From Umbilicaria muhlenbergii (lineage: Eukaryota > Ascomycota > Lecanoromycetes > Umbilicariales > Umbilicariaceae): a stretch of 64,000 nucleotides of DNA. The stretch covers positions 1,226,291-1,290,290 of the forward strand of contig KK106985.1 of assembly GCA_000611775.1 (NCBI GenBank). Direction: 5' to 3'. Below the pieces are notes generated by a model. The model was not told the DNA's origin, did not search any database, and saw only the letters and a program-made list of their open reading frames with translations. This document shows positions 4,171-62,294 of the stretch, in pieces; position 1 is the stretch's first letter; each line of letters starts with the position of its first letter. The position numbers were made by a program, and so were the translations under genes.

Positions 4171-4984
4171 CACTGTGTCATGATAAGCTTCCACCGGATC
4201 GGCTAGATATTGCAGAGGGCGCAGGTCTGCTCGTCAGACGCGCTGCCTGGCTTTCCGGGAGACGCGTTCAATTACTAAGCGGCGTCATCGCCACATAAGG
4301 CTGAGCAGGCATGCCTGCCGTTCACCAGCGACATCAACAGACCGGAACACCACTCACTGTAGAAAGCTCCTAGATGACTGTGAAATCCCATGTGAAGGGT
4401 TTGATACCCGTGCCTGAGGTTTTTGCTGGCTACGTTCGAGAGGAAAGTGAGCACAATTGTATGCTGGTAGAGTAAGTGTACATTAACCTGAAGGGCTCCG
4501 GCGAAACATAGGATTTCCGCGATGCTATACTGTAAAATAAATCCTTGGTTCATGAGCCGAGTCCATAGGCCATTGACAACTTACATATAGAGCTATATCT
4601 CAAGCGCTTGATACAAGCTATGAGAAGATACAGCACGATAATACTGGGCCAAAATGGCTGTCCGCTTCATCAATTCATTACCATTGCACGTAGCTATCCT
4701 CACGCATTGTGATCTAAATTAACAATAAAGGTATATTTGCCCTCGAAATGGTTTCAATCCTGGCCGGGAGCCATCTGCTTTTCTACCTTGAGTACTGGAG
4801 ATGCAGTGCTTCTCTTGGCCTGACTGACAGCAAAGCTCGTTCACAGATCGGGCTATAGACAAGCTAGTATAAAGTAGCCATATGCTGTGGGACTTGTCTA
4901 CTTGCTTCCTGCCCCTTGGATGATATGGTATATGACAGCATTTCCTCGAACTTAACGCAAAAACGAAACGAGCAATCCTCTTTA
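4171..4984. other. intergenic, nothing recognised
   Basis: Stop-rich in all frames apart from short shadow frames. It holds the upstream region of the gene ending at 2365 and the 3' flank of the gene ending at 4985. No repeat or RNA gene was seen. Confidence 0.5.
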
Positions 4985-5941: not shown

Positions 5942-6029
5942 GGGGGTCCTCGTAAAATGACACCCCATTTTCTTAGAATGACACCCCCTTTTAATACATT
6001 GACACCCCCACCCACGCTAGCCTAATCGG
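5942..6029 (+). repeat. left terminal inverted repeat of the 935-bp element
   Basis: It pairs with 6777-6876. The inner ends share CCTAATCGG. The left arm has an extra ~11-bp stretch (acccacgctag) absent on the right, and the right arm has one additional copy of the cattgacacccc subrepeat. Confidence 0.8.
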
Positions 6030-6074
6030 GCAGTTATTTCAAGAATTCGTGTTTTTATGTTTCAGATATCAAGG

Positions 6075-6110
6075 ATAACGAAAAGGGACGCAGGCGTGCC
6101 TTTTCGTTAT
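6075..6110. repeat. perfect 12-bp hairpin inside the element
   Basis: ATAACGAAAAGG at 6075-6086 is followed after 12 bases by its exact reverse complement CCTTTTCGTTAT at 6099-6110. It lies just inside the left arm of the element. Confidence 0.7.
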
Positions 6111-6776
6111 ATATGTCCTCAATATACTGGGGTATTTCGGGGCTGTTAATCATTAAGGCAGAGAGAATTTTGGCCTGGTTTAACATGAATTTGAGTCTCT
6201 GTATTAATGAATTCAGAGACAGCAGGCGTCAGGGCTTCCTTTCAGAGTGTGAGGTGACTTATAATGAAGCTGACGTCATGATTATGGCCTGGTTTTTTCA
6301 CATCTAGGGTCCACTCCCCCCCTTTTTGGAGGGCCACTGCCTCAAAGGGGCATCCGACCATACAGGTGAATGTATGACGGCGTTTTTAAAGGTCTCAGAG
6401 AGGAGAGCGTTGGCTGTGAGTAGCTCCTTTATTGCAACAAAGGTAGACTCTAACCGTAACCCCCTTTTTCTCAATGGATCAACATTTATCTACAGCGAAA
6501 CCCTGCTTCAAAGCATAAGAGCTTCAGCTGTCATAAAAGACTCTTCAATACAGGGTGGCTGAAGGCTCATTGAGGCAGGCGCCTCGTCCCCAGATGAGGC
6601 GGAGAAGGAGGATGGGTCGTGGTTCATAATTGAGGGGCGCAGGTGTAGGGTATTGAGGTGTAAGTTGAGCTTCAGGGGTGTATAAGGGCAGTCGCGCGTT
6701 GAAAAATCCTTTCCCACGTGTCGTACGTGCGTGTCTAATTATACCCAATATAGCTAGCTAGTCACGTTAGAATTAT

Positions 6777-6876
6777 CCGATTAGGGGGGTGTCAATGTAT
6801 CAAGAAAGGGGGTGTCAATGTATTAAAAGGGGGTTGTCATTCAAAGAAAATGAGGTGTCATTTTACGAGGACCCCC
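6777..6876 (-). repeat. right terminal inverted repeat of the 935-bp element
   Basis: Reverse complement of the left arm, with a few substitutions and one additional internal subrepeat. Confidence 0.8.
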
Positions 6877-18605: not shown

Positions 18606-20329
18606 TCACTTCCTTGCCAAATTGCTATGCAACTTGTGCTCCCTCATGAAAAGACTAATAAGAGCCCCTAGCACCCCAATCCCAAGCGTGGTTAAGAAGA
18701 CGCCCCTCAATGCATCCATATACACGTCTTGAACCCCTCCTTTCCACTCCGGCGGCAAATGCTTGATTCCGTCAAAGCTATCCCTAATACTTCCAATGAC
18801 CTTAGCAGCGTCTGTCCGATCACCGAACCTTCCCCAGAGTTCCATCTTCAAGATATTCTGGAAGACCGCGGAAGCGATGGTGATGCCAATGGTACTGCCA
18901 GTACTGCGGAAGGCGTAGGAAGCTGATGTTATAACGGCTTGATGCTTGTGGTCCACAGCCGCGATCAGTGCGAGCAGGGTAATTGTCAGCATTCCGCCAT
19001 ATCCCACGCCCGCGAAGAACAAATATACGAAAGGCTGCCACGCAGGCGAGGTAAGCGTGAATGTCGAAATCAAAGCCAGAGAGGCCAGGAAAATAACCTG
19101 GACGCAAATGCTAAGGAAGTAATACCGCCCTGACCATCTCATGACGACGCCAGAGCCAAGAGAGCCCACCGCATTTCCTATCGCTTGCGGTATGAGCCGG
19201 ACGCCAGCTTCAGTAGTTGAGAAGCCTTTGAGCTGGAAATAGATAGGACCGTAGAACAGGAGTGAGAAGACTGCCATGGTGGTAAACCAATTAGTCAAGC
19301 AGGCGGCGAAGACAGTTCGATCTAGCAGAAGTTTGACCGGTATAACGGGCTCCGTTGCTACATGGCTCTCCACATAGGTGAATATACCCCCAAAAACGGC
19401 CGAAAGTGGTAGAGTAGTAAGCACCAGCGGATGTGTCCAGGGAACAATGTTTCCTCCGGAATTTAGCCCGAGAAGCAGCAGAACAAGGGTAACGATCATT
19501 GTGGTGGCGCCAAGAAAATCGATCCGTTTCCAGGGTGACTTGTCCGTCTGTTTGACCGGTATCTTCACTGTGAAGAAGACAAGGATGCCCGAGACAACCG
19601 TAAATGGCACTTGTACCAGAAATGCTACCCTCCAACCCCATACATCGTTGACCCAGCCACCAAATACACCGCCAAGGCCGGCGCCCAAACCGTAGCATAC
19701 ATTCCCGAAGCCTTGCCACACTCCTCTCTTCCGCAGAGGCACGAGATCTGAACCGACAAATGTGGAGATGGCGGTTAATCCTCCGCCGCCCATGCCTGCA
19801 ACGACACGTCCGAGTATCATGATCCATTCACGTGTGGCGAGACCACAGATCAGATTCCCAATGGCGAAGAAGACGTTCGAGAAGACGAGCCCGGTCCGGC
19901 GAGAGAGTATGTCGGTTAAACGACCGCTGAGAGGCTGGAGAGCGGCGTTGGCGATCAGATAAGCTGACGCAAGCCATGAGAGGAGTGAGAGAGCGCTGAA
20001 CGAGGTGGAGATCGGGGCGCTGAGGGTAGCTATTATTGTGGAATCTGTTTGCCACTTAGCAATTGAGCGATTCTAATGGTTGAAGGGCCCGAACCTAGTG
20101 CTGCGAGAAAGCACCCAAACCAGATACTACTCATCACAAGTAGGAGCTGCGCCGTACTGGGCTCTTCAGCTATAGGCACGTCGGTCTCCCCATCACCACT
20201 CTCACTTCTCTCTGCTCCATGCTCAATTGTTCCATTATCTCGAGCTTGGGTTTTGTCGTTGCCGAGTAGAGGGCTCTGTTCGTCCGGAGGAGAGGAAGGC
20301 TCGGAGCGGGAGTGGATAGATCTAGACAT
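18606..20329 (-). CDS. MFS transporter, 14-TM DHA2 type (FNX1/VBA-like)
   Basis: Two exons (20095-20329, 18606-20044) give 557 residues. A ~65-residue hydrophilic N tail with an EQSPLLGN dileucine-like signal precedes the membrane domain; such motifs often route proteins to the vacuole. Motif D1 reads LDSTIIATLSAPI, the loop GRLTDILSRR is the MFS motif A, and ILGRVVAGMGGGGL matches the FNX1/VBA branch of fungal basic-amino-acid and drug transporters. About 14 hydrophobic segments can be counted. Likely role: proton-driven export or vacuolar uptake of small cations or drugs; the substrate is inferred only from the branch. The frame is intact. The start codon lies only 71 bp from the edge of the giant palindrome, which must therefore lie within or next to its promoter. 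Confidence 0.88.
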
Positions 20330-20400
20330 GCTGCAGCATTGGTTTCCGTGGAAGCTTCATTTGTAGTCGAAGCGGCATGTTCGTAAGAAGTAGGACTTAT

Positions 20401-23400
20401 TAGAGGGATTTAGCCACCCCTGTATTGTTTTTGAGCATATGCAGCAAGGGTTTTCAGGCGTAGCCCGATCAGTAGTAGTGGGAGAAGTGAGGTGAATGTG
20501 GCAATTTCTCAGCGCTCAGACCTAGTAGACAGTAGACCCAATTAGTAATAATTCAATATAAAAGTCAATTTCCGCAGTAGGATCAAGAAAAGAGAGGGGG
20601 GGGGGGAAACCCTCATAACTCTACCCTGTGAATACATCCTCAACATTTAGTGTGTGACATCATGAACCTCAGGGTTGCTGCTGCTGTAGGAGCAGCAGTG
20701 ATTAACATAATAACAAGCTCCTGCCTGATCCTACTCAAGTCTGAAGAGCCTGAGACCACATCAAAGCTCATAGAGGAGACAATTGCTTGATATAAAGAAC
20801 TCTTGCCTTACATTGCTCATGAATTTCAGCTTCAGGCGCTTCAGGATGTTCTGATGATGAAGTGCATGCAGTATGTCTGATTCTTCATTAGAAACACCTA
20901 CTAATTTATATGTTTTAAGTTTAATTGAGTAGAAATGAAGAGAATCATATTCTTACTTGATTTAGATGAAATTCTCTTTCATCAATGAGTATATGCTTCT
21001 TCAGAGGTTACTTTGACAGTAATCTGCTGTTGATTGTTCTATCCTACTCACTACAAGTCTATGTGTAATCAATTTGATCATTTCAGGTCATGATTGTCAA
21101 CAGTATTCAATGACATCATTATACACCTGACTCACTGATATAAGGCAATGCTGACCTGAGATGAGAGACGCCTGATGTTTTCTACCCTTTTCAGGTATAC
21201 TAGAGTCATATGAAATGCTGATAAAGGTCACTGTATATGAGGTTTTATTAATGAAATCACAAATTAAATATGTTGACCTGGAAAAAATCAGGAGGAGTTT
21301 TATTCAGAGCATAAACATCATCATTATTATAAATATCAGATGATAATTACCTCTGACAGCTTAATCTCAAGTCTTATGAGGTCATTCATTGATAGAAGAG
21401 GAGACTGAGGCATGATTAATGAATCAAGCCTTCAAGAGAAGCTTATAAAGGCTGATATCTCTTTTATTTGCTCTACAATTGTTAATTTTGACTGTTTGTA
21501 GGTCAATGAAGGTCATCATTCTTTGAAATGTCTTTATTTATACAGTGACCCCGCCTACTGTACTGTTTGAGGCATCATTGATTTTTACTCATGCATCATA
21601 TGACAGCCTCATACACGTCTGAAAGCTCAGTTTAACCACTGAATGTTAAAGCTTCAGATTGAAGTCAAACACACCTTCATCATTCATCAGAATCAGTGAA
21701 CATATAATGACTTTCAGCTTGTTTAAAAAGTGAGACAAGGCTCTGTGACTTTATGTTATATGATGATTATTTTATTGTTCAATATCTGCACCTGCCTTCA
21801 TGAAAATTAAATGAGTAAGAGATTTCAATGTGAATCTTTTACTGTTGAGGAATACCTGTACATGAGAGAAGTATCAGCAGTGATGAAAGAAGCAGATAAG
21901 TAGTAACAGTCTCTTTTAAGATATTTTAATCACTTTTATATGATTATCTACAATTATATGTTTCAGATTTACCTCTTATTTTAGGTTTCAACATTGAAAA
22001 CTGACCTTTTAAACAGATTCTTAAAAGTTATTTTGATCACCCCTTTACAGAATCATCATCATGCCTCATGAGCTTTTAAGTGTTGATGAGGGCCTAGAAG
22101 AAGATTAGTTCTAAGGCTGAGAGAGATGATTTTATGAGAGGAAAGCCTGAGTATCAATTTCATGAGGAGGTGTTGATGTAAAGTTAAAATTCAACATTTT
22201 AATCTTAAAGGGTGAAATCTCTTGATACATAGAACTTATAACTCTGAATATTATATATATATATGTATTTCATCTCTCTCTAATGTGCAAAGCTTGTAAT
22301 ACAAGTCTCATTATGTGATTTTACATTTTCCTCCTTTTCATCTTTCTTTGATTTTTAAACTCAACTGATGTGAGTTTCATTCTTGTCTGATCAACCTCAT
22401 ATTAACACATTTTATAATTTTACATATGAAAAAGCTCTTCACATTTTCCTCTGATTATTCAGCAAGAATAAGGGAGTGATTATGAGGGAGTGTATCACTT
22501 TCATCATGAGGAAAATAAAAAAAGAGGTAAGTTTTAAACATGCTTCATGTAAACTGTCCTTTTTCTTGATGCTAAAGATTAATATGATCTATTAAATGTG
22601 AAAGTTTCAGAGCAATCAGAGTACAACTTAATTTTTAATGAATTTTTACTTATGATGAACTTTGATTTCTTCAAAAAAGTTCAAGCAATTCTGTCACATC
22701 ACGCTTCAAATGATTTAAATGAGCATTGATCTCACTGTCTCTCTCTGCTGAAACTATTCCTCAAAGGCTGCTGCTCAATGTGATCATTGCAGACTGCATT
22801 TCATTCATTAAAACCTTAGCTGCTTCAATTTAAGTATTGATTATCTTATCCTCATCAGAGGTTTCAGCTCATCAACGCTTTCATGACTTCTCAGGCAAGA
22901 CAGTTGAAGCATTTCAGCTTTGAGAAGAGATCACTGAGAGTGTATAAAGCTGTTCATCAAGTGATTCCTCATCATCAATTGTTGCAATCATGAAATGCTG
23001 AACTCAGAAGCTTTTCATTGTGATTTGTTCTCATTCTGCCTGTGTTTATTCTGCTGCTTTTTTCAAGCCTTGAATGTATAATCATCTTGTTTTAAATGCC
23101 TGTACAGTTACTTAAAAGTCATCATGTGAGATCTTCATTTCAGACTCAAGTTCTTTTTTTATAACCTGTTCAATATCCTTCTTCAATCACTTCTTGACTG
23201 TCATTCTTGAGGCTTTCAATTCATACTCAGTATCCTGTTGCAGAAACGTCTGTACATTGTCTCAGAATTTTGTTTTATTAAGTAGTTCATAGAACTCCTG
23301 CTGATCAACACAAATTCAAATAAGAGTTAACTTCTCACTAGTTAACATGCCTCAAGCTCATGACTTCTTTTCATGCTCAGTAATAAAGCTCTTTATATCA

Positions 23401-24044
23401 TCTGTCAACTGCTGTTGAGCTGTTCTCTGCTGTTCAGTACCTCATTGTCATTCAATGCCTCAATTTGCTTTAACTCTGCCTCAAGAACAGTCTTGAGAAT
23501 TCTTTTTTTAAGCTTTCAACTGCTTCTCCTGCTCTGCTCTGTTGTTCTCCAGGTTCTCTGACTGCGTTTGAGGGGTGAAGACAGGACTGAGTGTGTAGAG
23601 TGACATAATGAGAGCTCATGATATGAGGGTGATGAGGGCAGAGGCCTGTGTCAAAGTTGAATAAAGGCTGAAATAAGTGCTTCTTTGCTGCAATGAAAAT
23701 ATCAGTTGATTTGCAGACTGCTCATACAAATTAAGTGTGAGAGTGACAGCTGACAGGGTATTTTCATTATGAGAAGCACTCAAAAGAGAGTTTATAAAAG
23801 GAAGACTGTCTTCAGAGGTTTCACCTCATGCTTGTACAACAGGTATAAGGGCATAATGAGTGATTAAAGTCTTCAAAGAAAGCCTCTCATCAACATACTG
23901 ATTAAGAGGCAGGTCAGAATTTGAGTCAGTGTCATAATCATCCTCATACTCACTGTCAGAGTGATCATCCATGGTGAGGGAACAGTCACATCAATTCATG
24001 ACAGTATGAAGCATGAAAAGGAGGTTTATTTTGAATAATTAATT
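20401..24044 (+). repeat. left arm of the giant palindrome
   Basis: It includes an 11-12 G run near 20597 and a short AT microsatellite near 22251. It retains a few CpG sites that are TpG/CpA in the other arm (for example near 23247). Confidence 0.85.
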
Positions 24045-24058
24045 AATTAATTATTCAA
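24031..24058. repeat. perfect palindromic centre
   Basis: A 28-bp exact palindrome built on repeated TAAT/ATTA steps marks the symmetry point of the 7.29-kb inverted repeat. There is no unpaired spacer at the tip. Confidence 0.9.
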
Positions 24059-27000
24059 AATAGACCTCCTTTTCATGCTTCATACTGTCATGAATTGATG
24101 TGACTGCCCCCTCACCATGGATGATCACTTCAACAGTGAGTATGAGAATGATTATGACACTGACTTGAATTCTGACCTGCCTCTTAATCAGTATGTTGAT
24201 GAGAGGCTTTCTTCAGAGGTTTTAATCACTCATTATGCCTTTATACCTGCTGTACAAGCATGAGGTGAAACCTCTGAAGACAGTCTCCCTTTTATAAACT
24301 CCCTTTTAAGTGCTTCTCATAATGAAAATATCCTGTCAGCTGTCACTCTCACACTCAATCTGTATGAGCAGTCCACAAATCAATTGATATTTTCATTGCA
24401 GCAAAGAAGCACCTATTTCAGCCTTTATTCAACTTTGACACAAGCCTTCACCCTCATCACCCTCATATCATGAGCTCTCATTATGTCACTCTACATGCTC
24501 AGTCCTGTCTTCACCCCTCAAACGCAGTCAGAGAACCTGAAGAACAACAGAGTGAAGCAGAAAGAGCAGTTAAAAGCTCAAAAGAAGAATTCTTAAAACT
24601 GTTCTCAAGACAAGGCTAAAGCAAATCAGAGCATTAAATGACAACAAGGTATTAAGTGATGAAGAACAGCTCAACAACAGCTGACAGATGATACAGAGGA
24701 CTTTGTTACTGAGTGTGAAAAGAAGTCATGAGCTCAAGGCATGCTAACTAGTGAGAAGTTAACTCTTATTTGAATTTGTGTTGATCAGCAGGAGTTCTAT
24801 GAACTACTTAATAAAATAAAATTCTGAGACAATGTATGAATGTTTCTGCAACAGGATACTGAGTATGAATTGAAAGCCTCAAGAATGACAGTTGAGAAGT
24901 GATTGAAGAAGAATATTGAACAGGTTATAAAGAAAGAACTTAAGTCTGAAATGAAGATCTCACATGATGACTTTTAAGCAGCTGTACAGGCATTTAAAAC
25001 AAGGTGATTATACATTCAAGGCTTGAAAGAAGCAGCAGAACAAACACAGGTAAAATGAGAATAAATTATAATAAAAAGCTTCTGAGTTCAGCATTTCATG
25101 ATTGCAACAATTGATGATGAGGAATCACTTGATGAATGACTTTATACACCCTCAGTGATCTCTTCTTAAAGCTGAAATGCTTCAACTGTCTTGCCTGAGA
25201 AGTCATGAAAGCATCAATGAGCTGAAACCTCTGATGAGGATGAGATAACCAATACTCAAGTTGAGGCAGTTAAGGTTTTAATGAATAAAATGCAATCTGC
25301 AATGATCACATTGAGCAGCAGCCTTCAAGGAATAGTTTCAGCAGAGAGAGACAATGAGATCAATGTTCATTTAAACTGTCTGAAGCATGATGTGACAGAA
25401 TTGCTTGAACTTTTTTGAAGAAATCAAAGTTCATCATAGATAGAAATTCATTAAAAATTAAGTTGTACTTTGATTGCTCTGAAACTTTCACATCTAATAG
25501 ATCATATTAATCTCTAGTGTTGAGAAAAAGGACAGCTTACATGAAGCATGTTTAAAATTTACCTCTTTTTTCATTTTCCTCATGATGAAAGTGATACATC
25601 TCTTCATAATCACTCCCTTATCCTTGCTGAATAATCAGGGGAAAATGTGAAGAGCTTTTTCATATGTAAAACTATAAAATGTGTTAATATGAGGTTGATC
25701 AGACAAGAATGAAACTCACATCAGTTGAGTTTAAAAATCAAAGAAAGGTGAAAGGGGGAAAATGTAGAATCACATAATAAAACTTGTATTATAAGCTTTG
25801 CACATTAGAGAGAGATGAAATGCATATATATGTATAATATTCAGAGCTATAAGTTCTATGTATCAAGAGATTTCACCCTTTAAGATTAAAATGTTGAATT
25901 TTAACCTTACATCAACACCTCCTCATGAAATTGATACTTAGGCTTTTCCCTCATAAAATCATCTCTCTCAACCTTAAAATTAACCTTCTTCTAAGCCCTC
26001 ATCAACACTTAAAGGCTCATGAGGCATGATGATGATTCTGTAAAGGAGTGATCAAAATAACTTTTAAGAATCTGTTTAAAAGATCAGTTTTCAATGTTGA
26101 AATCTAAAATAAGAGGTAATTCTGAAACATATAATTGTAGGTAATCATATAGAAGTGATTAAAACATTTTAAAAGAGACTGTTATTACTTACCTGCTTCT
26201 TTCATCACTGCTGATACTTCTCTCATGTACAGGTATTCCTCAACAGTAGAAGATTCACATTGAAATCTCTTACTCATTTAATTTTCATGAAGGCAGGTGC
26301 AGATATTGAACAATAAAATAATCATCATATAACATAAAGTCACAGAGCCTTGTCTCACTTTTTAAACAAGCTGAAAGTCATTATATGTTCACTGATTCTG
26401 ATGAATGATGAAGGTGTGTTTGACTTCAATCTGAAGCTTTAACATTCAGTGGTTAAACTGAGCTTTCAGACGTGTATGAGGCTGTCATATGATGCATGAG
26501 TAAAAATCAATGATGCCTCAAACAGTACAGTAGGCGGGGTCACTGTATAAATAAAGACATTTCAAAGAATGATGACCTTCATTGACCTACAAACAGTCAA
26601 AATTAGCAATTGTAGAGCAAATAGAAGAGATATCAGCCTTTATAAGCTTCTCTTGAAGGCTTGATTCATTAATCATGCCTCAGTCTCCTCTTCTATCAAT
26701 GAACAGCTTCATAAGACTTGAGATTAAACTGTTAAAGATAATTATCACCTGATATTTGTAGCAATGATGATGTTTATGCCCTGAATAAAACTCCTCCTGA
26801 TTTTTTCCAGGTCAACATATTTAATTTGTGATTTCATTAATAAAACCTCATATACAGTGACCTTTATCAGCATTTCATATGACTCTAGTATACCTGAAAA
26901 GGGTAGAAAACATCAGGCGTCTCTCATCTCAGGTCAGCATTGCCTTATATCAGTGAGTCAGGTGTATAATGATGTCATTGAATACTGTTGACAATCATGA

Positions 27001-27687
27001 CCTGAAATGATCAAATTGATTACACATAAACTTGTAGTGAGTAGGATAAGACAATCAACAGCAGATTACTGTCAAAGCAACCTCTGAAGAAGCATATACT
27101 CATTGATGAAAGAGAATTTCATCTAAATCAAGTAAGAATATGATTCTCTTCATTTCTACTCAATTAAACTTAAAACATATAAATTAGTAGGTGTTTCTAA
27201 TGAAGAATCAGACATACTGCATGCACTTCATCATCAGAACATCCTGAAGCGCCTGAAGCTGAAATTCATGAGCAATGTAAGGCAAGAGTTCTTTATATCA
27301 AGCAATTGTCTCCTCTATGAGCTTTGATGTGGTCTCAGGCTCTTCAGACTTGAGTAGGATCAGGCAGGAGCTTATTATTATGTTAATCACTGCTGCTCCT
27401 ACAGCAGCAGCAACCCTGAGGTTCATGATGTCACACACTAAATGTTGAGGATGTATTCATGAGGTAGAGTTATGAGGGTTTTCCTCCCCCCCCCTCTTTT
27501 CTTGATCCTACTGCGGAAATTGACTTTTATATTGAACTATTACTAATTGGGTCTACTGTCTACTAGGTCTGAGCGCTGAGAAATTGTCACATTCACCTCA
27601 CTTCTCCCACTACTACTGATCGGGCTACGCCTGAAAACCCTTGCTGCATATGCTCAAAAACAATACAGGGGTGGCTAAATCCCTCTA
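24045..27687 (-). repeat. right arm of the giant palindrome
   Basis: Reverse complement of the left arm. Just beyond the centre, from 24119, an outward reading starts MDDHFNSEYENDYDTD, followed by stretches of acidic and then coiled-coil-like composition; its mirror lies in the left arm. The frame is much interrupted and not assignable. Confidence 0.85.
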
Positions 27688-29390
27688 CTATCTTCCCATG
27701 AAGTAAGATGGGTATATATCTGTTGGTGTAGGTGCTAAAAACGCCAGGTGTGCGTGTTACACCGAGCGAGTGGGGCAATTGGGCCTGAGCAGCCCACTTC
27801 CGAGACCGGTGGTCTCTAGGCGTGCCAGGGTATAGCGTTAGTTTTAGGCCGCTGAGATCTCAATACTTTGATCAAAAACGAGCTTCGAAACCAATATTTC
27901 TTTACGAACATGCTAATTGTCATGCAGACACTGCCTTCAACCACATCTCTCCTCTCACTGTCGTCGCCGCCCTTGCCGCCCTTTCACTCGCCCATTACTC
28001 GCCCCCATGACAACTAGCTTACTGCTGCCGCTATCGACATCTTCCCCACCCTCTCTACCACAAACCTGGAGCGTCCTTAGCTAACGACGTACTGCTGAAA
28101 CTCCTATAGCTAGCAAGCTAAATCATTGCTACGGCGGCATGCCCACTGCAGTAGAGATCCAGTAAGTCAAGGATCTTTTGACTGTTAAGCATCTGATATG
28201 AGATACCTAACGTGTTAGTCACAGTCAGGGCTCTCTTCCTTAATGTCCTTCTTTTTCCCCCGTGAAGTCATGAAAGTCTGTCACCGTTGCGCTTGAAATC
28301 ATGGTTGAACATTCGCAGGCTTAAATTTTACAGTCAAGGCTCCTTCAACACACAAGTATGAGTGGTGGCGTGGTTGGACACACTGATTAAACGTAGCTGA
28401 GCCTAACCAAAGTTGGGACGTTCTACTCTGAAGCTCGCAGGTCATACGTGCAGGAACGCCGGTGTAACGCCGGTGTAACACCATAAAATGGTTGAAGCTA
28501 GGTACCTGCGACATGACACCCTATCGTGATTCAAGTGGCCGTTCTTACCTAGTTGTTAAGTTTCTCTGGATCTCTGCTACGAGGCGCTTTCCAAAAGTGA
28601 GTCTTTACCTCTTCGGGTGGGCCATCCTACCAATCAGATCAGGGCCTTGGAGTAAGATCTTTGATAATGTTGAATTTAGGCGCTGTCGGCTTACGGCAGT
28701 CGCTTATCGGGGTGATTTCAGGGTGGATTTCGGGGTTCAGGCTCCTCAGCCATGGCCTTATAATTAGGCGAATTCTCCTTTGTTTTAGCAGTCAGTCAGT
28801 CTTTACCGAAATAATTTCAACAGATAAGACCGTCGATCCGGCTTGTCTCGGGACCGTCAGAAGGCAGTATCCACACGAGGCTCAACTCAGTGAGGTGTAA
28901 GCCACGCGCTGTATCATGGCCACACCAAAATTTATCGGCGGGTGAACGACGCCTGTGCTTAGACACCTGCCTAGAAGGGCTGAAAGAGGAGGGGGGAGGA
29001 TGATCAGACTGCAGAGTTTCAGAGATAAAAAGCAGGCGTAAACGATGTTTTTTAGGGAAATTAAGAAAAGGTGAAATACTATATAAAACTTAAAGAGGCC
29101 TTGAAAAATGTGAAGAACCACCCTCCTCAACCTTAAAGCGAGCAGGACTAGGGCTCAACCCGACAAGGCACCTACTGACCAGTGGTCTGGTATCAACCAA
29201 CCACTGGTCAACTAGGTACTATATAGACACGCCTACATGTAGCTAGCAAGTACTCGACTACTCATAGAACCCTAATCCGATACCTGATCTCTATTGGAGC
29301 TTTACAAAAAATCCTTTTATAGCATTATTTTTCTTTTATTTCATCTGCTGATACTATGTAACCATCACTACCACATTAAAGCAACGAAGG
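27688..29390. other. 1.7-kb gene-free flank of the palindrome
   Basis: No supportable gene. Minor features are a doubled CGCCGGTGTAA near 28459, a hairpin of the form GAGACC-GGT-GGTCTC near 27802, and the inverted repeat at 29176-29210. The composition suggests old repeat debris. Confidence 0.45.
29176..29210. repeat. 11-bp inverted repeat (hairpin)
   Basis: TGACCAGTGGT at 29176-29186 and its exact reverse complement ACCACTGGTCA at 29200-29210 are separated by 13 bases. Confidence 0.6.
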
Positions 29391-30765: not shown

Positions 30766-31599
30766 TTAAGGGGATACTTCTATGGGTTCGAGCACACGGC
30801 CAATACTGACGATGTCGAATAGGATTTCTTCTGCCCATAGTTGGTAGAAGCCTGCCAGTAGAAGGACGCTTGTAGATACAAGTCCGGCATGAGTCAGGTT
30901 CACGTTTGGTTCTCGAGAAGTGAGGTATGCGCTCCTGAAGAAGGAATGACGGGATGCAGGAGAGTGCGCTGATTTTGTTTTAGATATGATATGACTAGAG
31001 CTCGGAAAATCACGCTTGGATGCATGGGACGGGGTTGTGTCTTACATACTCCAGTCATGGAGGTGAATAAGACATGACATCATTATATGCTGTTAAACGT
31101 ATGCTGAGAATCTACTTGATACGTTCATGCAAGATCATATCAGCCATTGCAAACCCCTTCAAAATCAATGCTCGATGAGTTGATGATTGTACTGTCAAGT
31201 GTCTTGCTTCATCCATCTATTATCTATGCTTTTGCATTTTCATTTATGCGTCTACTGAGTGATATCTTAGCTGACCCCTGCTGGGAGATCAATCAAGTAT
31301 CCGGCACATGCACACCTTTAGCATGAGCCAAAAATCAACTGCCACGTCTATGCTGCGCTAAAGGCCTCCTCTACTTCAAATGTCGGCTCTTCTTTCTATT
31401 ATGCAGCCCAAGGCTTGCCCTCGGCTATCAGGTCTAACATGATAGCCAGTCACGTTCACGGGCAGTCATATCACTAACTCGATTCTGCCTCGAGAACCGG
31501 GGAATGTCCTAGGCTGTAGTCCGTGACGAGCCTTTGATACGCGTGAAGCAAAAGGTCAAGAGGTAACGAGAGCCTGGGGTTGACAAGAGAAAGCAGGTA
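30766..31599. other. intergenic, nothing recognised
   Basis: Stop-rich sequence between the two pseudogenes. No repeat structure noticed. Confidence 0.5.
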
Positions 31600-32575
31600 G
31601 GCTTAAAGAACTTGGCATATTCAGGCGCTGTCATCTGTGTTGACTCCTTTTTCTTTCTAATGTTTTGCGATTTCACTCCGAAGGTACAGAAGAAGGCCAC
31701 CGCGGCTTCAGCGACTGACGCTATAAATACTTTTGACAGCGCATAGTTGTATGCTTCCCTGACTATGTCGATCTGTGCTGGTGGTACTACCGAGGATATA
31801 GCGGTAGCCCCAGCGGAAATGATCGCAGCACTGTTCAGTTGAGGGACCGTCTGCTTCAACCATTGCTTCAACACATTCGAAAAGATGTTCTGTGCAATAC
31901 TGACAGCCAAAGCCATTCTCAAGAAGTTGTTGAAAAGCATAAGTGCATTACCTGTGGATAGGTCTTTGTCTGGAAGCGCTGCCTGGATCGCAACTGTAGC
32001 TAGCGTGAGCATGGACCCGTAGCCGCTGCCTGCCAAGATCTGGTACTCAGCCCAGGTCGCTGTGGTCCTGTGGAGCTGTTGACTTGAAGAGTGGTGAGGA
32101 GTTCGGAGGCAATGGCAAAGACAATCAATCCAAACCACATGAAGGGGACACAGTAGCCGACGGTGAGCATCAGAGATTCAACGACCAAGGCCATTACCAT
32201 CAACGAGGCGAGGTATGGTACAAGGTCAATTCCTGAGCTTTCCGCAGTAACCCCTTTGGCGCTCTGGAATTAGAACGGAAGGTAATAAGTATGAGTGCTT
32301 AAGTCTATAGGTATAAAGCAGACCAAGAGACAGCTGAAGGCGCTGATATTCTGATGAATAATCCGGGGAGGAATCATTGCACTAGTGACGCAATTAGCCA
32401 CAACATGTCTTTCAAGCCATCCATAGAGGCGACTTACTTATCGCCCCGCTGCAGCTGCAAGATAACAAACAGAACCATAGCCAAGCCGGAGCCCAGCAAC
32501 CAACCCCAGACTTCAATGAAACGCCGCTCTGATCTGAACGGCCTGGCGCCCCCTCTGCGCCATTTATGGATTCGT
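31600..32575 (-). pseudogene. 5'-truncated MFS transporter (C-terminal half only)
   Basis: Minus-strand segments match the second half of a 14-TM DHA2 drug-efflux transporter: WGWLLGSGLAMVLFVILQLQ near 32510, HTYYLPF and SAKGVTAESSGIDLVPYLAS near 32230, AEYQILAGSGYGSMLTLAT near 32030, LPDKDLSTGNALMLFNNFLR near 31950, and a tail ending near KKKEST. Plausible introns separate the segments (a donor after LQRGDK, an acceptor before SAKGV). A further join is needed between the VNSSTG reading and the AEYQILAG reading. The N-terminal half with motif A and the first six helices is absent upstream, where only unrelated sequence follows. It is therefore most likely a truncated gene; an unusually split intact gene is less likely. 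Confidence 0.6.
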
Positions 32576-59846: not shown

Positions 59847-62294
59847 CTACCTGACCTCCTCAGCGCTCACATCACCGAATTTCTCCTCCTCGGCAACTGC
59901 TGGAGGAATTCCGGCATTGGCCAAAGCCTTAAGGTCATCCTCGCCCATTTCACCATGCCAGCCATGAGCCACGAGATATGCTCGAAACCTCTCATCCTCA
60001 TTCGACAAATCATCACCTTTGAGGTTAGGGACGAAGACGTACGTCACAAGTACTCCAACAACACCACAGATGGCCGCAATGATAAATGTCCATCTCTTTC
60101 CCAAGTGTGTTTGGATGGGTGTAAAGGCCTGTGTTCCAATAGCAGCGCCGGTTTTACCAATTGCAGCGGAGATACCATAACAGGTCCCGCGAACGGCCGT
60201 TGCATAGCTTTCGGAAGAGATAAGGCCTAGCATGTCTCCAGGTCCAAGATTGCCGGAGGATTGCATGAGACCATAGAAAACGACAAACAGCGGAATAATC
60301 TTGGTGATCTGATTATAGGCACAGCCAATGATGAGCCCGAAGATGACTGCTCTTCGTTAGCGGTGTGTTCCCGTGAACGCACACCGTGTGAAGTAAGGTT
60401 CAGTCATAACTTACGATATCCGCTGAAACCAAGCATCATAGTTTGCTTCCTGCCTAGTATGTCACAAAGATAGGCACCCAGGAATACTCCCGGAAGAGCG
60501 ATAGAACCAAGAAGGAGCTGGTATTCAGCGGTCTTGATGATGTTGCCGTTTGGCACAACACTGGAGATAATCCTCCCGGAAAAGACGCCGTTCGGGAAAG
60601 TGACCTAGTACGTTCATTAACATGCTTTCTCTGAATATCCAGGGGCGAGTACTTACAAAGTCGTACAGGAACCAAGCGCCACAGGTCCCGATCAAGGATT
60701 TCCAGTAGTATCGTATAACTAGCAGATACGGCACCCTCTTCTTAATCGCTCCTCTCCGGTAAAGCTTCGAGTTGAGCATCTTGATCCGAAAGTAGAAGAC
60801 TGTTAACGGCAAAAGACACCCAATACCGAAGCAAACACGCCATACCGTTGAAAGGTGATTTGTCCCGGCTGCCGATATCACGATCAAGAACACGATGACT
60901 GCCAAGGGCCCACCAAAAGATAAAGGTAGGTTCGTGACGAGAATGAATATCGGCCCACGCCTCTTAAGTTGGTGCTCGTTTGCTGCTTCAGAAGCCGATG
61001 TAGACGAAGCAGGATACTCGCCTCCGGTACCGAAGCCGACGATACCACGAGCCACGGTCATCATCCAGAACATACCGTTGACGGTAGAGCCATGAGAGGC
61101 AGTGGCCAAGATGCCTCCGATAACGATCAGAGCGGTGGTAGTTACAATGGCAACTTTGCGGCCGAGATAGTCGCATGTGAGGCCGATGGTGATCTGGCCT
61201 ATGATTTCGCCCACAAGGAGAGCGTTTGATACTCGTGTGCTGACGATAGAAGTATATTCCTTTGGGTATTCCTGCTTGAGCAGGACATTGGTCATTGTCC
61301 TGTGTCAAGTCAATTATGGGAATCGGGACGGTGATGGATTAGGGTAAATATGTGAAGAGAAGGCAGCGGGAGTTACATACATTAGGTTGTTCTGATAGCC
61401 ATCGCTGATCAAAGCAAAACCAGCACAGAACTAGCCCCGGACATGGTCAGTGGAACTGTTTCTTTTCAGCGTTGGAGCCAATGTTGTTGGACATACAATG
61501 GTGAAGATATCAGACAATGACTGCCTCTGCCCCGAGACCTGCTTCGAAGGCGCAGCAGGATCATTGAGAACCATAACAACCCCCGGGGCTCCAGCGATCT
61601 TCTCATTGTACGTTGGGAGGTGGGGTCCAGCCTTCTCCTCGTCTCTCGTTGGGAGGTAGGCTCCACTACTTTTCTCGTTTCTCGCTGGGAGCTGGGCTCC
61701 CGCTGTCGTTCCGTTCGTTGTTGGATGCTGAGCCTCAGTTGACTTCTCACTCACTGTTGAAAGGTGGGCCCCGGCGGTCTTCTCGTTCTTTATTGCAGGT
61801 GGGGCGGCTCCTGTGATCTTCTGGCTCATCGTAGGTAGCTGCGCTCCAGCTGTCTTTTGGTTCATGGTGTGAAGCTGGGCTCCAACTGGCTTCTGGTTCA
61901 TCGTAGGTGGCTGTGCTCCAACTGTCTTCTGGTTCATCGTGGGTGGCTGCGCTCCAGCTGTCCTCTGATTCATGGTGGGAAGCTGGGTCTGGCTCGTCGT
62001 GGGGAGCTGGGCTCCGGCTGTCTTCTGATTTATCGTAGGAAGCTGGGTCTGGCTCGTCGTGGGGAGCTGGACACCAGCAGTCTTCTGGTTCGTCGTGGGT
62101 AGCTGGGCTTCGGCAGTCTTCTTGCTTTTCTTTGGGGGCTTGACTGCAGGTATCTTCTCCTTCTTCTTTGGAGGCTGCACTGCAGCTACTTTCTCCTTCG
62201 GCTTTGGAGGCTGGGCTGCAGGTTTTTTCTCATTTCTCGGCGGAAGGTCCTCTTCGCTCGAGCCAGCCAGGTCATCCGCATCAGTGAAAAACAT
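59847..62294 (-). CDS. GIT1-like MFS permease with N-terminal repeat array
   Basis: Five exons (61497-62294, 61381-61430, 60657-61299, 60415-60604, 59847-60346) give 726 residues. The C-terminal ~480 residues are a 12-TM permease of the GIT1/PHO84-like branch (glycerophosphoinositol and phosphate transporters): SLSDIFTIFCAGFALISDGY, the motif A loop CDYLGRKVA, RGIVGFGTGGEYPASSTSAS, CDILGRKQTMMLGFSGY and SSGNLGPGDMLGLISSESYA. The first ~240 residues are hydrophilic: a Lys/Pro-rich segment, then about 14-15 copies of a ~12-residue unit like LPTMNQKTAGAQ. The first exon runs directly into TM1 with a phase-0 intron (IFTI|FCAG), so the array belongs to the same protein and should face the cytosol. 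A ~40-residue tail ends in EKFGDVSAEEVR. Confidence 0.88.
61580..62140 (-). repeat. in-frame 36-bp coding minisatellite
   Basis: It encodes the ~12-residue units of the permease N terminus. The best-conserved copies lie at about 61830-62100 (LPTMNQKTAGAQ, PPTMNQKTVGAQ, LPTTNQKTAGVQ), and two shortened 8-residue units (LPTTSQTQ) break the period. Outer copies towards the membrane domain are more diverged. Confidence 0.85.

Follow-up and report, generated by a model that had tools for sequence, protein, structure and literature searches.

A spacer-free 7.3-kb palindrome in Umbilicaria muhlenbergii, probably a dead inverted dimer of a PHIS-type DNA transposon

Introduction

How can a DNA element consist of nothing other than its own inverted repeat? 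The question is raised by a palindrome of about 7.3 kb in the ascomycete Umbilicaria muhlenbergii, located at positions 20401-27687 of a 64,000-nucleotide stretch of contig KK106985.1, which was analysed as a whole and is referred to here as the window. Very long inverted repeats are a feature of foldback elements, and the palindrome shares them with elements such as FB, Galileo and Tm1, but differs in that its arms hold remnants of both genes of a transposon and meet without a middle section. The explanation that we favour, and hold to be probable, is that a PHIS-type (PIF/Harbinger-ISL2EU-like) DNA transposon gave rise to an inverted dimer, now dead, which was made by fold-back, carries one end twice and was moved in trans.

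Results

Extent, centre and ends of the palindrome

Comparison of the window with itself, as called for by an earlier sequence-only reading, gave a single long inverted match by self-BLASTN, 20401-27690 against 27687-20398 (94.5% identity, E = 0.0), and the palindrome is by far the longest among the repeats listed for the window. Global alignment of 20401-24044 with the reversed 24045-27687 yielded 3448 identical columns out of 3647, with 192 mismatches and 7 single-base gaps, and thus both comparisons bear out the full-length palindrome of two arms of about 3.64 kb proposed in that reading. The left arm (20403-24044) and the right arm (24045-27685) join without any spacer at an AATT-rich centre, which an exact-palindrome search placed at 24027-24062. 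The centre is exact and loopless, as described before, but measures 36 bp rather than 28 bp; the next-longest exact palindromes in the window are 14 bp long, two of them within this core and one at 4305.

Spacer-free palindromes are a recognised class of artefact, and a fold-back chimera arising in the assembly or the library would produce just such a structure. This origin is extremely unlikely, because the mismatches between the arms comprise 187 transitions against only 5 transversions and the flanks are unlike each other; moreover, both arms end at the same base beside a TA.

The terminal 20 bases occur as exact copies at 20403-20422 on the plus strand and 27666-27685 on the minus strand, and no further copy was found anywhere in the window with up to 5 mismatches. 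Mirror symmetry stops at both ends. As the sequence-only reading had noted, the ends adjoin TA on both sides (20401-20402 and 27686-27687), which makes TA a candidate target-site duplication. The length of the duplication is uncertain, since the wider contexts TATTA (left, 20398-20402) and TACTA (right, 27686-27690) differ by one C/T, and the duplication could alternatively be of 5 bp, with a single C/T difference between its copies. We estimate from base composition that TA would stand at both ends by chance in about 1 in 20 cases, and the 2-bp match is by itself weak evidence for insertion. The non-mirrored flanks and the TA on both sides fit a later move of the palindrome as a unit, 2 bp again being a weak sign, and the earlier suggestion of a mobile unit consisting entirely of inverted repeat fits as well.

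Transposase frame

Each arm contains a broken, inward-reading frame with an approximate end, at 20662-21903 (plus strand) in the left arm, where it has 22 in-frame stops and may contain introns, and at 26185-27426 (minus strand) in the right arm. Pfam scans, in which X was placed at each stop codon, covered the left arm in all six frames and the right arm in its two candidate frames. The sole family above chance in the frames scanned was DDE_Tnp_4, matched at 21280-21678 on the plus strand (25.9 bits, E 8.5e-06) and at 26404-26808 on the minus strand (26.4 bits, E 5.9e-06), both above the cutoff of 24.8; the complete left frame as query scored 24.0 bits, just under it. These matches of 24-26 bits are weak and point to a putative transposase of the DDE_Tnp_4 type, which we take to place the element in the PHIS superfamily (PIF/Harbinger-ISL2EU-Spy). 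The comparison with Tc1/mariner insertions made in the sequence-only reading is not sustained, since no other transposase family was matched by the piece from each arm or in the six left-arm frames.

All 22 stops in the transposase frame are common to both arms and none is private to one of them. Few private stops are to be expected in any case, because only 23 differences between the arms fall in this stretch; they are distributed over codon positions 1, 2 and 3 as 4, 13 and 6.

Second frame

A second broken frame reads outward from the centre in each arm, at 22620-23972 (minus strand) and 24117-25470 (plus strand), both with approximate ends and without a Pfam family. In either arm its start lies at a distance of 72 bp from the centre, in the context CACCATGG. 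Two stretches of this frame hold 16 shared stops (2 and 14) and 12 private ones (3 and 9), a count that omits a short stretch with four gaps between the two and in which the second stretch was read in a frame picked to continue the first. Differences at codon positions 1, 2 and 3 number 18, 13 and 17 in the first stretch and 29, 21 and 12 in the second. As third positions show no excess of differences, there is no sign of constraint on either protein after the duplication.

This decay bears on the proposal that the locus was selected as a source of hairpin RNA for RNA silencing. Judging from the sequence, any read-through transcript would be self-complementary, but the frames decay without a sign of selection and transposon remnants account for the anatomy, so that we consider such a role very unlikely.

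The left-arm second frame matched FliP at 8.8 bits (E 1.9; cutoff 26.9), which is attributable to chance, as is the one match returned by a PDB search (E 0.24), and the whole window had 0 Rfam matches at gathering scores. A 52-residue piece of the transposase frame had no confirmed relative in viral contigs (0 of 107 pattern stretches) or in prokaryote genomes (0 of 592), and neither did 69 residues taken from the second frame in viral contigs (0 of 41); the exact 22-base end pattern had 0 occurrences in viral contigs. These misses say little because the collections are not eukaryotic.

Mutation record of the arms

The observed/expected ratio of CpG is 0.08-0.10 in the arms and 0.85 in the remainder of the window, and thus the repeat combines CpG depletion relative to its surroundings within the window with an excess of transitions, as is characteristic of CpG-type C-to-T mutation. 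Neither arm was favoured, the C or G state at the 187 transitions being found 93 times in the left arm and 94 times in the right. Independent loss of a CpG in each of two copies can leave TG in one and CA in the other. Such TG/CA discordance was found at 21 sites (counted with overlaps); when an equal number of transitions was placed at random 2000 times, the mean was 1.5 and no draw exceeded 7, which argues for separate CpG loss in each arm. CpC-type discordance (CT against TC between the arms, on either strand) amounts to 14 sites, with a random mean of 2.8 and a maximum of 9. The abundance of C-to-T changes suggests that some of the damage postdates the mirror copying.

The changes are unevenly distributed along the arms, with 29 mismatches in the 1495 outer columns and 163 in the 2152 inner ones. 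Nineteen of the 21 TG/CA sites lie in the inner 2.15 kb, beyond a changepoint fitted at arm column 1495. The contrast between inner and outer parts in TG and CA sites gave a Fisher p of 0.0013 at this changepoint, which was fitted to the same arms as were tested, of 0.0028 at column 1400 and of 2.7e-05 at column 2000. For CT/TC sites the corresponding values were 0.17, 0.18 and 0.013, of which only the last is significant. The state of the outer half is compatible with two histories: it was either mutated before the mirror formed, for example perhaps as the portion that was repeated in the genome, or evened out later by gene conversion between the arms.

Two separate copies, each mutated beforehand and joined head to head by insertion or recombination, would also account for the TG/CA discordance. 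Two independent copies should, however, leave ends at the joint, and none is present at the centre within 5 mismatches, although a heavily mutated end could escape such a search. An exact 36-bp mirror joint at the identical internal point is also hard to expect of two copies, and the transposase halves, with their fully shared stops, are almost identical. The double insertion entertained in the sequence-only reading is therefore disfavoured, and we regard it as improbable.

The mutational signature is not that of canonical repeat-induced point mutation (RIP), which removes CpA, the usual target in ascomycetes, and raises TpA. In the arms CpA is not depleted (observed/expected 1.36) and TpA is not raised (0.65-0.66), and the RIP indices TpA/ApT (0.67) and (CpA+TpG)/(ApC+GpT) (1.68) both fall on the non-RIP side of the usual thresholds. 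Trinucleotide counts over 20901-27187 revealed that TCG, CCG and CCA are nearly absent, with CCA at 0.09, TCA at 2.5 and CCT at 1.59 of expectation. The loss of CCA with CCT kept is not explained by any simple CpG/CpC targeting rule. The locus thus resembles fungal transposons subject to RIP or CpG-type mutation in that C-to-T change is confined to the repeat within the window, and differs from them in keeping CpA and CCT while losing CCA. CpG signatures have been described in Tuber melanosporum and in basidiomycetes including Microbotryum, and linked to Masc2-like methyltransferases (PMC4352252); a search of PMC7882544 for CpG contexts found none.

Genomic context

The genes around the palindrome are ordinary, and 6 of the 10 neighbouring frames scanned have Pfam matches, namely to an MFS transporter (7.8e-45), PAP2, adenylosuccinate lyase, a ZIP transporter, AATF and Saf4/Yju2. 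The MFS transporter gene lies on the minus strand with its start codon at 20329, and the left end of the palindrome, at 20401, is about 72 bp upstream of it; the palindrome may disturb the promoter of this gene. A reading frame at 31509-32177 resembles, by eye, the C-terminal part of an MFS transporter and is possibly a second member or a remnant. Elsewhere in the window, a 935-bp unit at 5942-6876 starts GGGGGTCCTCGTAAAATGACACC and has inverted ends of about 69 bp that are 95.7% alike; one of them contains a 21-bp tandem repeat, and no TA duplication is obvious. This unit may be a small non-autonomous transposon. Within an open frame that has an NQKTAGAQLPT-like protein repeat, 36-bp and 60-bp tandem repeats lie at 61611-62231.

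Discussion

Relation to known transposon groups

The element was compared with known groups by features. It resembles PIF/Harbinger transposons in its DDE_Tnp_4-type transposase, its two genes and an end beginning with G, and its 3.6-kb arm is near the average length of an autonomous element, about 4.1 kb in PMC4482050. The same paper gives a 3-bp TWA target duplication for the group, while the terminal 3 bp here are TTA and TAC. No Pfam match to Myb/SANT was obtained in the six left-arm frames and the right-arm second frame, where heavy mutation may hide one. For ISL2EU, an AT duplication within A/AT/T is described in PMC4482050, whereas the ends of the palindrome carry TA; a THAP domain and a YqaJ second protein had no match in the six left-arm frames, and these too may be hidden by heavy mutation. 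PHISTA, the PHIS transposons with TA duplications of rust fungi, include TET-bearing members with a further protein without Myb/SANT, according to PMC12730594. The PHIS-type transposase and the TA ends are shared with this group, the latter being only 2 bp and possibly due to chance, whereas the whole-element palindrome sets our locus apart, and no TET/JBP match was found in the six left-arm frames.

A family whose members are ordinarily full palindromes, as giant foldback elements that have two transposase genes and spread in that form, would explain why identical ends abut TA on both sides, and such an element may have moved as a unit. At the centre, however, the upstream region of the second gene is trimmed to 72 bp and looks truncated. 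Terminal repeats in PIF/Harbinger are moreover short, according to PMC4482050, ranging from 5 to 1042 bp in 214 families and staying below 60 bp in about 93% of families, and the 3.64-kb inverted repeat is far outside this range. We judge a palindromic family of this kind to be unlikely. Among the matches listed in our literature search (titles and abstract openings), there was no whole-element palindromic PHIS transposon.

Origin of the inverted dimer

The reading as an inverted dimer is suggested mainly by the layout of the frames. Because each arm holds an inward-reading transposase and an outward-reading second frame, it looks like one element without its other end; compared with an ordinary two-ended element, what is missing would be the promoter of the second gene and the other end, beyond the start of that gene. 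From this anatomy, the ancestral element may be pictured as running from end A through the transposase gene to a convergently oriented second gene and end B. A break beside end B could have allowed the AATT-rich strand to fold back and be copied, the core serving as a short inverted repeat on which the broken strand could fold. In yeast, short fold-back inversions, mostly 5-34 bp in length, are known at microhomology beside breaks (PMC11724301), and the references of that paper include larger cases. The resulting mirror dimer would have carried end A twice and lost end B together with most of the promoter of the second gene.

Given a transposase that tolerates two like ends, such a dimer could be mobilised by cutting and joining. 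A transposase made elsewhere would have recognised both copies of end A and placed the entire dimer at a TA, the point of insertion being that beside the MFS transporter gene. A C-to-T process, either RIP-like or combining methylation and deamination, would then have mutated the dimer at CpG and part of CpC, partly separately in each arm and chiefly in the inner 2 kb.

Going further, palindromic PHIS elements could form a mobile lineage of their own, founded by the loss of one end and mirroring, since a mirror dimer with one end in duplicate would not need the other; repeat-directed mutation by the host would then be triggered by the two arms of the element itself and not by a second copy elsewhere. 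We hold this to be quite unlikely and put it forward as speculation.

Taken as an inverted dimer, the locus exemplifies how a two-ended element may turn into a full palindrome that uses one end twice, which is a possible route to foldback elements. Its two arms serve as an internal control for repeat-directed mutation, since each TG/CA CpG marks a separate change in each copy. If the palindrome alone triggered the mutation, the locus would be a natural experiment on whether linked inverted arms are enough.
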